A stretch of DNA of 64,000 nucleotides from assembly GCA_019973575.1 (NCBI GenBank), contig BPUI01000002.1, forward strand, positions 992,001 to 1,056,000, in the 5' to 3' direction. This document shows positions 45,921 to 51,090 of the stretch, one piece after another. The translations under genes and the position numbers were made by a program. Under the pieces are notes generated by a model that was not told the DNA's origin, ran no database searches, and saw only the letters and a program-made list of their open reading frames with translations. Numbering within the stretch: the first letter of the stretch is position 1; each line of letters starts with the position of its first letter. Origin of the DNA: Gemmatimonadetes bacterium T265 (GTDB taxonomy: Bacteria; Gemmatimonadota; Gemmatimonadetes; Gemmatimonadales; Gemmatimonadaceae).

Positions 45921-47275
45921 GCGACGCGGCGGCGCGCGCCGCCCTCGCCGGACGTCTGCGACCGCCGCAGGGCGTGCTGGAGATCGCCGCACGGCTCGAG
46001 CGCGAAGGGTACGAAGCGTGGTGCGTCGGCGGCGCGGTGCGCGACGCGCTGCTCGGCGAGCCGTCGCTCGACTGGGACCTCGCGACGTCGGCGACGCCGG
46101 ACGTCGTGCAGCAACTCTTCCGGCGCACCGTCCCAAAGGGGGTCGAGTTCGGGACGGTGGGCGTGTTCGACCGAGCCGGCGTGCTGCACGAGGTGACGAC
46201 GTTTCGCCGCGACGTGCGGACGGACGGCCGGCACGCCGTGGTCGAGTTCGGCGCCTCGCTCGAGGACGACCTCGCGCGACGCGATTTCACGATCAACGCG
46301 ATCGCGTTCCGCCCGTCGACGGGCGTCGTCGCGGACCCGTTCGACGGCGCCGGTGACGCGGCCCGGCGGCTGATCCGCGCGGTCGGCGACCCCGCGACGC
46401 GCATGCGCGAGGACCGGCTACGCGCGCTGCGTGCGATCCGGTTCGCTTCCCGCTTTGATTTCGCGATCGACCCGGCGACCTGGGCGGCGATCGTGGAAAG
46501 TGCGCCGCACATGACGCGGCTCTCGCCGGAACGCGTGCGCGAGGAGATCGAGAAGGCCATGCGCCAGGTGCGCTGCCCGTCGGAGGCGCTCGAGCGCTGG
46601 CGCGCGTCGGGCGCGCTGGCGGTGCTCGTGCCGCCGCTGGCCGCGCAGCCGCCGGTCGCGTTCACGACCGCGGACTACTTGCCGCGGCCGACGCTCGCGT
46701 CGCGTCCGCAGCGGCTCCTCAACCGGCTCGCGGCGCCGTGGCTCGGCGTGCCGCGCGCGGAGGTCGAGCGAGGGTTGCGTGCGCTGCGCTGCAGCAATCA
46801 CGAGGTCCGCTGGACGACCGATCTTACGGACCGGGCCGGCGCCCTGCTCGAGGTGGCGCGCACTGCGTTGACCGGTTCCGCGTCCGGCGAGACTGCGCGG
46901 CCGAGCGACGCCGACCTGCGTCGGTGGGCGGCGACGTGCGGGCGGACGCGCGCGGCGCCCGTTCTCCGCCTGCTCGCGGCGCGGTTCGCCGCCGAACGCG
47001 CGCTGATCCGCGCGGGCGACGACGCCGGTGCCGTCCCGAGTGGGCGGGCTGTACGCTCCGCCTACCGCCGCCTCGTCCGGATCGCGTACCATGACCCGAT
47101 CGAAATCACTGACCTCGCGGTCTCCGGCGCTGATCTGGCGGAGGTCGGCATGCGCCCCGGGCCGCTCGTAGGCGCTACGTTGCGGCAGTTGCTGGACGCC
47201 GTCGTCGCGGACCCGTCCCGCAACACCCGGGCGTGGTTGCTCGCCGAGGCCGCCGCGCTCGCGGCGCACGCCTGA
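45917..47275 (+). CDS. cca: CCA tRNA nucleotidyltransferase / poly(A) polymerase family
   Basis: Adds or repairs the 3' CCA of tRNAs. The 452-aa class II nucleotidyltransferase shows VGGAVRDALLGEPSLDWDLAT with the DxD metal site, RRDFTINAIAF, DPFDGAGDAARRLIRAVGDP and REDRLRALRAIRFASRF, the full family core. The C-terminal helical part is diverged and carries no HD phosphohydrolase motif. A dedicated A-adding or CC-adding enzyme cannot be ruled out, since split enzymes are known. GTG 45917 overlaps the asparaginase stop. Confidence 0.92.
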   Translation: MSDAAARAALAGRLRPPQGVLEIAARLEREGYEAWCVGGAVRDALLGEPSLDWDLATSATPDVVQQLFRRTVPKGVEFGTVGVFDRAGVLHEVTTFRRDVRTDGRHAVVEFGASLEDDLARRDFTINAIAFRPSTGVVADPFDGAGDAARRLIRAVGDPATRMREDRLRALRAIRFASRFDFAIDPATWAAIVESAPHMTRLSPERVREEIEKAMRQVRCPSEALERWRASGALAVLVPPLAAQPPVAFTTADYLPRPTLASRPQRLLNRLAAPWLGVPRAEVERGLRALRCSNHEVRWTTDLTDRAGALLEVARTALTGSASGETARPSDADLRRWAATCGRTRAAPVLRLLAARFAAERALIRAGDDAGAVPSGRAVRSAYRRLVRIAYHDPIEITDLAVSGADLAEVGMRPGPLVGATLRQLLDAVVADPSRNTRAWLLAEAAALAAHA

Positions 47276-47297: not shown

Positions 47298-47897
47298 ATG
47301 CTCTTCCGTGGTCGCCAGCCTGCCGCCAGCGTGTGGCGCCGATTCCGATCGGACGCTGACGAGTTCACCGTCGTCGCGGACGACGCGTACGTCGAGGTGC
47401 GTGTCGCGGCGAACGCCGAGCGCGCGGTCGACCTGCTGTACGCGCTGAGCGAGCAGCTGCCGCCCGCGGTCGACGTCTGGATCGAGGACGTGCGGGCGCA
47501 CGCCGCATGGCGCGGCGTCAACGTTCCCCTGCCCGACGTTCGCGAAGCGATCGCCCGACTCAAGGTTCCGCTCGCCGCCTACGGTGGCGTCGAGTTCGCG
47601 GTCTATAACGCCGACGACCAGCTGACGCTCGCCCCCGACCTGACGCTGTACGTCTACGCGCGGAGCGACCGGTGGATCTACGTCCTCCAAAGCTTCGGCC
47701 TGATCGAATCGAGCACGCTGGCGGGCGACGGCTACCAACTCGCGCCCGACGAACTCGGGGACGCGCCCGAGCTGGCCGACGCGCTCGTGAGCGTCGCGGA
47801 ACGGCTGGGGCTCGTCGGCGCGGGGAGTGCCGGATCGCTCGCGGCGGCGAACATCACGGCGTCCAGCGCCGGACGACCCGCGCCGGGGCGCGCGTGA
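47298..47897 (+). CDS. Conserved-looking hypothetical protein
   Basis: A 199-aa protein between cca and rarA, whose start it overlaps by 4 bases. The first 155 residues look like a mixed alpha/beta fold ([50 protein letters not shown]) with no signal peptide; the end is an Ala/Ser-rich tail. I do not recognise the family or any catalytic motif. Coupling to rarA hints at co-expression. Confidence 0.75.
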
Positions 47898-49285
47898 CGC
47901 GGCAACGCAACGCCGCGGCGGCCGGGCCGTCGCTCTTTGCCGACGCGCACGCGTCGGCGGCGCCGCTCGCCGCGCGGATGCGCCCGCGGACGCTCGATGA
48001 GTTCGTCGGTCAACGCGATCTCCTCGCACCGGGCCGGCCACTCGGCGACGCGATCCGAAGCGGCCAGGTCCGCTCGATGATCCTCTGGGGACCGCCCGGG
48101 ACCGGGAAGACGACGCTCGCGCGGTTGATCGCCGGCTACACCGACCGGGCGTTCGTGCCGTTCTCCGCGGTGACCGAGGGCGTGCCGCGTGTGCGCGAGA
48201 TCGTCGCGGAGGCGGGCGTGCGGTGGACGACCGAAGGGCGCGGTACGATCCTGTTCGTCGACGAGATCCACCGGTTCAACCGCGGCCAGCAGGACGCGTT
48301 TCTGCCCCATGTCGAAAGCGGGACCGTGACGCTGGTCGGCGCGACGACGGAAAACCCGTCGTTCGAGCTCGTCGGCGCGTTGCTCTCGCGCGCGCGGGTG
48401 TTCGTGCTCCAGCCGCTCGCACCGGACGACCTCGTCGCGCTGATCCGTCGCGCGATCGACGACACGGACCGGGGACTCGGCCGCCTGGGACTGGTGGCCG
48501 GCGACGAGGCGGTCGCGTTGCTCGCGGAGATGGCCGACGGCGACGCCCGGCGGGCGCTCACCGCGCTGGAGGCGGCCGCCGATCTCGCGGGACCCGGCGG
48601 CACGCTCACCCGCGATCTCGTGCGCGACGCGCTCCAGCGGCGCGTCCCGCGCTACGACAAGAGCGGCGAGGAGCACTACAACATCATCTCCGCGTACCAC
48701 AAGGCGCTCCGCGGGAGTGACCCACAGGGCGCGCTGTACTGGCTCGCGCGGATGATCGAGGGCGGGGAAGACCCGATGTACATCGCCCGTCGCACGGTCC
48801 GTTTCGCGGCGGAGGACGTCGGGCTGGCCGACCCCGACGCGCTCCGGCTTGCGCTCGCCGCACGCGACGCGTACGACTTCCTCGGCTCTCCGGAGGGCGA
48901 CCTCGCGCTCGCGGAGGCGGCCGTGTACCTGGCAAGCGCGCCGAAGTCGAACCGGGTGCACGTGGCGTGGAAGGCGGCGCTCGGCGCCGCGCGCGAAACG
49001 CCGGCCGAGCCGGTCCCGCACCACATTCGCAACGCGCCGACCGGGCTCATGCGCGAACTCGGCTACGGAGCGGGGTATGAGTACGCGCACGACACGCCGG
49101 AGGGCTACACCGCGCAGGAGTACCTGCCCGAGCGGCTGCGCGGACAAACGTTCTACACGCCCGGGCCGCACGGCTTCGAGCGCGACGTGACGCGCCGCCT
49201 CGCGTGGTGGGCGGAGTTGAAAGCCCGCGCGACCGCGAATACTCCTAACCCCGAGTCGGACCGCCGGAACGGCGAGGAGACGTAG
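47894..49285 (+). CDS. rarA: Replication-associated recombination protein RarA (MgsA)
   Basis: AAA+ ATPase of the WRNIP1/RarA family acting at stalled replication forks. The 463 aa show [14 protein letters not shown] at the N-terminus, Walker [10 protein letters not shown], Walker [21 protein letters not shown], the sensor [10 protein letters not shown], and a C-terminal domain with the RarA-specific [27 protein letters not shown] and [19 protein letters not shown] 47894 overlaps the preceding gene. The stop TAG shares one base with the next start. Confidence 0.95.
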
Positions 49286-49770
49286 TGAGACACAGGACGC
49301 GTGTGACCGGAGCGCTTGCCGCGGCAGCGCTCGGGACTGCGGCGATCGCCGGGTGCGCGACGCTCGGCCGCCAAGTGTTCAACACCCCGATCGTGTCGTT
49401 CAAGGACGTGCGACTCAACGGCGTCGGACTGCAGGGCGGGAGCGTGGACGTCGTCCTGAACGTGTACAACCCCAACCATTACGGGCTGAGTGCGCAACGC
49501 CTCGACTACCAGGTGCTCGTGGATTCCGTGCCGCTCGGCAACGGGGCGATCACGCGCAGCTTCGGCGTCCGCGGGAGCGACTCGACCGAGGTCAGTCTGC
49601 CCGTGACGTTCAGCTACGCCGGGCTCGGCAGTGCGGGGCGGGCGCTCCTCGCGCGCGGCGTCGTCAACTACCGCGTACTCGGTAACATCACCGTGGGCAC
49701 GCCGCTCGGGAACTTCACGCGCCCGTTCGACCGCACCGCTCAGTTCAACAGTCTTGGCGGCGTTCGTTAG
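49285..49770 (+). CDS. LEA type 2 (WHy-domain) lipoprotein
   Basis: A 161-aa predicted lipoprotein. The signal peptide ends with the lipobox IAGC (Cys at residue 24). The rest is a single LEA14/WHy-like beta-domain (FKDVRLNGVGLQGGSVDVVLNVYNPNHYGL, followed by YQVLVDSVPLGNG and VSLPVTFSY). Proteins of this type are associated with desiccation tolerance or surface adhesion, but no function is proven here. GTG 49285 is the start. Its TAG stop lies in frame with hflX. Confidence 0.88.
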   Translation: MRHRTRVTGALAAAALGTAAIAGCATLGRQVFNTPIVSFKDVRLNGVGLQGGSVDVVLNVYNPNHYGLSAQRLDYQVLVDSVPLGNGAITRSFGVRGSDSTEVSLPVTFSYAGLGSAGRALLARGVVNYRVLGNITVGTPLGNFTRPFDRTAQFNSLGGVR

Positions 49771-49800
49771 TCGCCCGTCCGCCACCGCAGAGGCGTTCCC

Positions 49801-51090
49801 ATCGCACGCGACCTGATCACCCTCGCCCCGCCCGAAGAGCGCGCGCTGCTCGTCGGCGCGCCGCTCAAGCGTTCCCACGACCGACACCAAGTCGAGGAGC
49901 ACCTCGAAGAGCTCGGGCGGCTCGCCGACACGGCCGGCGCGTCGGTCGTCGGCTCGCTTACGCAGCAGCTCGACCGCCCGCACCCGGCCACGTACCTGGG
50001 CTCGGGCAAACTCGACGCGTTGCGCGAGCGCGCGACCGCGCTCGACGCGTCGCTCGTGCTGTTCGACGACGAGCTGTCGCCCGCGCAGGGCAAGAACGTC
50101 GAGCAGGCGATCGGCGTGCGCGTGATGGACCGCGCGGAGCTGATCCTCGACATCTTCGCGACGCGCGCGCGGACCAACGAGGCCAAGCTGCAGGTCGAGC
50201 TCGCGCAGCTCGAATACATGCTGCCGCGCCTCACGCGCATGTGGACGCACCTCGAGCGCACGCAGGGCGGCATCGGCACGCGCGGGCCCGGCGAGACGCA
50301 GCTCGAGACCGACCGCCGGCTCATCGGGCACCGGATCCGCGTGCTCAAGGACCGCCTCGCGGGCGTGCAGCGCTCGCGCGAGGTGCAGCGCGCCGGGCGC
50401 CGCGACGCGTTCCGCGCGGCGCTCGTCGGCTACACGAACGCGGGCAAGTCGTCCATTCTGCGCGGGCTTTCGGGTGCGGACGACGTGTTCGTCGAGGACC
50501 GACTGTTCGCGACGCTCGACCCGCTCACGCGCGAGGTGCGCGTCGGCCCGCAGTCGCGCGTGCTCGTGACCGACACGGTCGGGTTCATCCGCAAGCTCCC
50601 GCACCACCTCGTCGCGTCGTTCCGCGCGACGCTCGAGGAGACGCGCGAGGCCGACCTGCTGCTGCACGTCATCGACGCGAGCCACCCGGGGTGGGAGGAG
50701 CAGCGCGCCGTCGTCGAGGACGTACTCGCCGACATCGGCGCGCGCGACACGCCGGTGCTGTACGTCTTCAACAAGATCGACGCGCTCGAGCCCGACGTCC
50801 TGGCCGCGATGCGCGCGCGCGAGGACGCCGCGGACGTGTGCGCGGTCTACGTGTCGGCGGTCGCGCCTGACGGCCTCGCGCCGCTCGTGCGTGCGCTCGC
50901 GGCCCGCGAGCAGCAGCGGTATCGTGTCGTCGAGCTGACGCTCGACGCGAGCGACGGGCGGGAACTCGCGGCGCTGTACCGCGACGCCGAGGTCCTCGAG
51001 CAACGCGAAGACGACGGCGCCGTCGTCGTCCGCGCGCGCGTCGGCGACCGCGTGTTCGGTCAGCTGCGGGAACGCGGCCTGATACATTAG
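49801..51090 (+). CDS. hflX: GTPase HflX (start codon not ordinary)
   Basis: Ribosome-associated GTPase that splits stalled ribosomes. The 429 aa from 49801 match the usual length. The N-terminal domain (ERALLVGAPLKRSHDRHQVEEHL, HPATYLGSGKLD) and glycine-rich linker (GGIGTRGPGETQLETDRR) precede the G domain with G1 GYTNAGKSS, G3 DTVGFI and G4 NKID. The first ordinary start codon in frame, TTG 50020, lies inside the conserved N-domain and would delete about 73 residues. ATC 49801 has AGAGG 7 bases upstream; CTG 49813 is another option. The frame also continues from the LEA gene's TAG stop. Confidence 0.9.
   Translation: MARDLITLAPPEERALLVGAPLKRSHDRHQVEEHLEELGRLADTAGASVVGSLTQQLDRPHPATYLGSGKLDALRERATALDASLVLFDDELSPAQGKNVEQAIGVRVMDRAELILDIFATRARTNEAKLQVELAQLEYMLPRLTRMWTHLERTQGGIGTRGPGETQLETDRRLIGHRIRVLKDRLAGVQRSREVQRAGRRDAFRAALVGYTNAGKSSILRGLSGADDVFVEDRLFATLDPLTREVRVGPQSRVLVTDTVGFIRKLPHHLVASFRATLEETREADLLLHVIDASHPGWEEQRAVVEDVLADIGARDTPVLYVFNKIDALEPDVLAAMRAREDAADVCAVYVSAVAPDGLAPLVRALAAREQQRYRVVELTLDASDGRELAALYRDAEVLEQREDDGAVVVRARVGDRVFGQLRERGLIH

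Follow-up and report, generated by a model that had tools for sequence, protein, structure and literature searches.

The stretch of DNA analyzed here, referred to as the window, comprises 64,000 nucleotides (C2:992001-1056000) of the 5.63 Mb genome of Gemmatimonadetes bacterium T265. It encodes a predicted ribosome-splitting GTPase HflX (49801-51090, forward strand) of 429 aa, counted from a putative AUC start to the stop codon. The gene is preceded on the same strand by a gene for a LEA_2-domain protein (49285-49770; PF03168, 61.4 bits) and, second upstream, by a rarA/mgsA-type AAA+ ATPase (47888-49285; PF12002, PF16193 and PF00004). Clustered with rarA and the LEA gene is a poly(A) polymerase/CCA-type nucleotidyltransferase gene (around 45977-46561, forward strand) about 4 kb upstream of hflX, whose TIGR01942 match falls below the cut-off. 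A spacing of a few kb between the nucleotidyltransferase gene and hflX recurs in several relatives (e.g., G013 and G014), and all matches to pcnB-type genes among the relatives were below the cut-off of that family.

The window HflX passes the curated model TIGR03156 (448.2 bits against a cut-off of 216.75) and shows the HflX domain order of GTP-bdg_N (PF13167), GTP-bdg_M (PF16360) and the G domain MMR_HSR1 (PF01926). The genome contains no second full-length match, the two others being weak (22-23 bits). HflX splits 70S ribosomes, and E. coli hflX is under a heat-sensitive promoter (PMC4770234).

The hflX frame is open from the TAG stop of the LEA gene (49768-49770) through to the stop codon at 51088-51090. 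We confirmed from the open reading frames (49285-49770, then open to 51090) that hflX is in frame with this TAG, and that no ATG, GTG or TTG occurs between it and a TTG at 50020-50022 within the conserved N domain. The preliminary description had the conserved N-domain beginning just after the TAG. The frame is indeed open there, but homology in the relatives begins at about the ATC codon at 49801-49803, and the 10 codons between TAG 49768 and ATC 49801 are unconserved. This ATC, the candidate near-cognate start, follows an AGAGG Shine-Dalgarno motif (49789-49793) with 7 bases between the two.

The start region was compared across relatives. hflX was found in 261 of 298 genomes of the phylum (E ≤ 1e-60). 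The loci sample, which includes 100 selected regions and 30 selected genomes, was picked for spread over genera and is non-random. In a first set, 158 of 159 loci could be placed (L024 begins inside the gene), and removal of 10 loci from repeat genomes left 148. The start column holds ATC in 75 of these, ATT in 34, ATA in 8, GTG in 15, ATG in 7, TTG in 3 and ACG in 3, with 3 unassigned, so that ATC, ATT or ATA (ATH) occurs in 117/148. A widened set, with identical stretches removed, comprises 184 loci of the class, 6 of the other class of the phylum and 58 in a Bacteroidota set. Gemmatimonadota loci L252-L273 are the nearest relatives (L264 is labelled Deltaproteobacteria), followed by the Bacteroidota set L274-L331, which includes L283, labelled Sphingomonadales, and L326, labelled 'bacterium P3'.

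Among the 184 distinct class loci, the start place holds ATC in 95, ATT in 39, ATA in 9, GTG in 18, ATG in 8, TTG in 5 and another codon in 10. These assignments were made by selection from the ATH and canonical codons in four neighboring columns, and the placement of L211, L212, L216 and L221 is unsure. The raw column 15, without this choice, reads ATC 67, ATT 26, ATA 8, GTG 14, ATG 5, TTG 3, GTC 3 and GTT 1 over the same loci. We called loci strict if the frame is free of ATG, GTG and TTG from the upstream stop up to a point 9 codons ahead of the conserved LLVGAP motif. The 143 ATH loci include 106 strict ones; in the remaining 37, either a canonical codon occurs within that stretch or a stop was not observed. 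Five further loci have neither an ATH nor a canonical codon, and several unassigned loci carry ACG at the start place or adjoining it. A canonical codon occupies the start place in 31/184, indicating that the near-cognate start is replaceable. Five loci with a canonical GTG (L018, L105, L106, L118 and L264) share TAG-ATT-NNN-NNN-GTG just upstream, in the spacing as printed, and either the ATT or the GTG may be used in them.

By composition, the mixture at the start column comes close to that expected of an Ile codon. The start codons are distributed differently from the Ile codons of the gene body (ATC 66%, ATT 27%, ATA 6% vs 82/16/3%; p 3e-5). At the internal Ile column (column 10), replacements include CTG, CAC, CTC and GTT, with a single GTG and no ATG; at the start place, the codons other than ATH are mostly GTG, ATG or TTG. 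Among the 106 strict loci, 55 have an in-frame stop no more than 12 codons upstream, and in L008 the stop immediately precedes the ATC. A Shine-Dalgarno 4-mer occurs at -15 to -4 of the start in 88/106 strict loci and is absent in 18, compared with 6/106 at the internal Ile codon and 12/106 at about 30 codons upstream. Its first base peaks at -14 to -9. A canonical codon follows four codons downstream in 19 loci; the motif is placed to suit the ATH in 18 of them and that canonical codon in none. The in-frame stops, the Shine-Dalgarno motifs and the replacement pattern thus disfavor an internal isoleucine. We conclude that hflX is very probably translated from the near-cognate AUC at 49801.

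Other accounts of the missing canonical start fare less well. The loss of an ATG or GTG through a sequencing or assembly error is extremely improbable, since the strict pattern recurs in 105 further loci from other assemblies; the case named in the preliminary description as a refutation of the unusual start, an ATG or GTG in relatives together with a local error, fails for most relatives.

Readthrough of TAG 49768 would give the LEA-HflX fusion that had been suggested, and the two genes do share a frame with no start codon in between. The stops of the relatives vary in kind (TGA 63, TAG 29 and TAA 14 among the 106 strict loci) and in distance, from 1 to more than 200 codons. The upstream gene is a different one or in another frame, and no conserved sequence was seen between the stop and the ATH in the aligned relatives. 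We rejected programmed readthrough, for which the stop lacks conservation in kind, frame and context, and consider the fusion hardly credible.

Initiation at TTG 50020, the first canonical codon in frame, would yield a protein of 356 aa (50020-51090). This codon corresponds to residue 84 of the frame, within GTP-bdg_N (residues 42-130), so a start there would remove about half of the domain, and the coding signal extends upstream of it. In the relatives, the first canonical codons are spread over 3-103 codons past the ATH; the best column is canonical in 61/148 loci, and no downstream column is canonical in half of them. A shortened HflX as the main product is accordingly very unlikely. CTG 49813-49815, also raised as an option, was rejected as a start. 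It lies 19 bases from the Shine-Dalgarno motif, and its column is CTG in 44/148 loci only and otherwise CTC, CCG, ATC or others. The ATC at 49801 was the other option offered, and it is the one borne out, by an ATH codon at this place in 143/184 distinct class loci and by its own Shine-Dalgarno motif.

How rare this arrangement is was gauged by a scan for coding signal that precedes the first canonical start. Three of the 32 kept ORFs in the window have such signal: hflX, with a gain of 19.5, one ORF truncated by the left end of the window and a weak antisense ORF with a gain of 7.3. Across 1.264 Mb of contig C2 (1046 kept ORFs) the gain exceeds 5 in 15 ORFs, and hflX ranks third. It is thus among very few genes in the window, and in these 1.264 Mb of the contig, with coding signal before the first canonical start. 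The scan undercounts, as it missed infC (rank 899) because of a canonical codon upstream in frame.

Among the other top candidates of the scan, only some of which were inspected, no conserved near-cognate start was demonstrated. A BPD_transp_2 permease appears cut at its 5' end, and the comparison for a KDO-transferase ORF spoke neither for nor against such a start. An AAA_28 (NadR-like) ORF (G000 C2:1121054-1121668, reverse strand; L375) lacks a canonical start ahead of its P-loop. The motif was located in 5 of 14 loci of relatives, and these have GTG or ATG upstream of it; the ORF perhaps has an ACG start or a local defect. Several ORFs with displaced starts also cluster at around 628000-690000 of the same contig, and these may be decayed or frameshifted genes.

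infC, which encodes initiation factor IF3, is the textbook gene with a near-cognate start. It has one in 30/30 loci (ATT, ATC or ATA in 21 and CTG in 9, counted by eye), with ATT in the genome of the window. The nine CTG loci belong to one family of the order, f2 (L033-L038, L042, L045 and L056), where the codon of infC has changed and is still non-canonical; hflX in the same family mostly uses ATC or ATT. The gene of another ribosome GTPase, der, starts with ATG or GTG in 29/30 loci, L248 being outside the 29. Together with the window scan, this canonical start of der argues against a general tolerance of odd starts in the phylum, and we rejected that explanation.

The six loci from the other class of the phylum have TTG or ATG at the start place. 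In the Bacteroidota set, no locus out of 58 is near-cognate by the strict criterion, and ATG stands at these columns in 30. Canonical starts in both groups indicate that a near-cognate start is unneeded for hflX function. As judged from the start columns, near-cognate hflX is, in the loci examined from these two phyla, a trait of one Gemmatimonadota class.

The history of the start codon was followed on a FastTree tree of HflX proteins that used 246 of 248 sequences (two were too short), left out the start columns and was rooted on Bacteroidota. The tree is a quick one with long-branch warnings, and 45 rows with uncertain starts were excluded from the strict count of changes. There are 8 changes between near-cognate and canonical starts (11 if lenient loci count as near-cognate) and at least 29 among ATC, ATT and ATA. 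The simplest history would be a single origin close to the base of the class followed by several returns to canonical codons.

A start at AUC 49801 means that HflX synthesis is probably limited by IF3, as it is for infC. According to PMC5472188, IF3 represses noncanonical starts, for example those of infC and of Streptomyces sigR, and PMC8266586 covers the kinetics of IF3 with an AUU mRNA. In hflX, AGAGG would position the ribosome at the AUC, and initiator tRNA-fMet would presumably be used. As IF3 destabilizes initiation on such near-cognate codons, hflX translation would be kept low and would rise when IF3 is scarce or initiation fidelity is lower. A fall in IF3 activity per 30S subunit would then increase HflX synthesis and, with it, ribosome splitting. 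HflX supply would then answer to the signal that also controls infC, itself near-cognate in these genomes.

hflX has two features of near-cognate genes of the IF3 type: the absence of a canonical start before the conserved protein, seen in the window and in 106/184 loci, and a near-cognate codon that is both conserved (143/184) and served by a Shine-Dalgarno motif (88/106). The conservation of AUC or AUU suggests that HflX production is tied to start-codon proofreading. Whether IF3-dependent control is the purpose of the AUC start is, on this comparative evidence, an evenly balanced question.

The main rival to IF3 control fits the same start site. The AUC may merely set hflX expression suitably low, any regulation by IF3 being incidental, and we regard this as a serious possibility that falls short of being probable. 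Where the start is canonical, a Shine-Dalgarno motif is mostly missing: it was found in only 7 of 30 such loci (one of the 31 lies too near a contig end to be counted) vs 88 of 106 strict loci. Among the canonical codons, GTG (18) is commoner than ATG (8). It is as if the total initiation strength were low in these loci too. For low expression alone, however, AUG with a weak Shine-Dalgarno motif would suffice, yet the 29 changes among ATH codons contrast with 8-11 changes involving canonical ones.

IF3 control of hflX would have precedents of several kinds. infC, with its IF3-autoregulated AUU or AUC start, resembles hflX in combining a near-cognate codon with a Shine-Dalgarno motif and in encoding a product that acts on ribosomal subunits, in the same genomes. 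It differs in encoding IF3 itself, whereas hflX would be a target in trans. The start of sigR is GTC in 32 of 34 Streptomyces species and GTT in 2, as given in PMC5472188. It is likewise a conserved noncanonical start outside infC, but in another gene, codon and phylum and in one genus rather than a class, and IF3 control is demonstrated for sigR, whereas for hflX it is inferred. E. coli pcnB has an AUU start that limits its expression (Binns and Masters 2002, cited in PMC1780047); it is an unrelated gene and encodes no ribosome factor. PMC1780047 states that full-length lepA of Borrelia burgdorferi and Bacillus licheniformis needs an AUU start. LepA is, like HflX, a ribosome GTPase, but the lepA text concerns two isolated genomes and does not, in that part, describe class-wide conservation. 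In Listeria, hflXr is controlled by transcription attenuation with a leader peptide (PMC6310831), which similarly ties the supply of an HflX-type protein to the state of the ribosome, by attenuation rather than by the start codon. We found no report of a near-cognate hflX start, or of hflX or infC starts in Gemmatimonadota, in the open-licence full texts searched, with papers that pair hflX with an initiation codon judged by their titles; earlier notice elsewhere is possible.

For most genomes of the class, gene callers restricted to ATG, GTG and TTG can be expected to cut HflX short or misplace it. To our knowledge, near-cognate starts of known role are very few (infC, pcnB and sigR). We tentatively propose a class-wide homeostatic circuit in which IF3 and HflX would both be made from codons that IF3 rejects, so that a loss of free IF3 or of initiation fidelity would raise splitting, with one basal origin and several losses. 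If true, such a case, spanning a class and concerning a ribosome-splitting factor, would turn the IF3 regulon into a general idea that extends beyond infC and would offer a natural test of the wiring between ribosome splitting and initiation fidelity.
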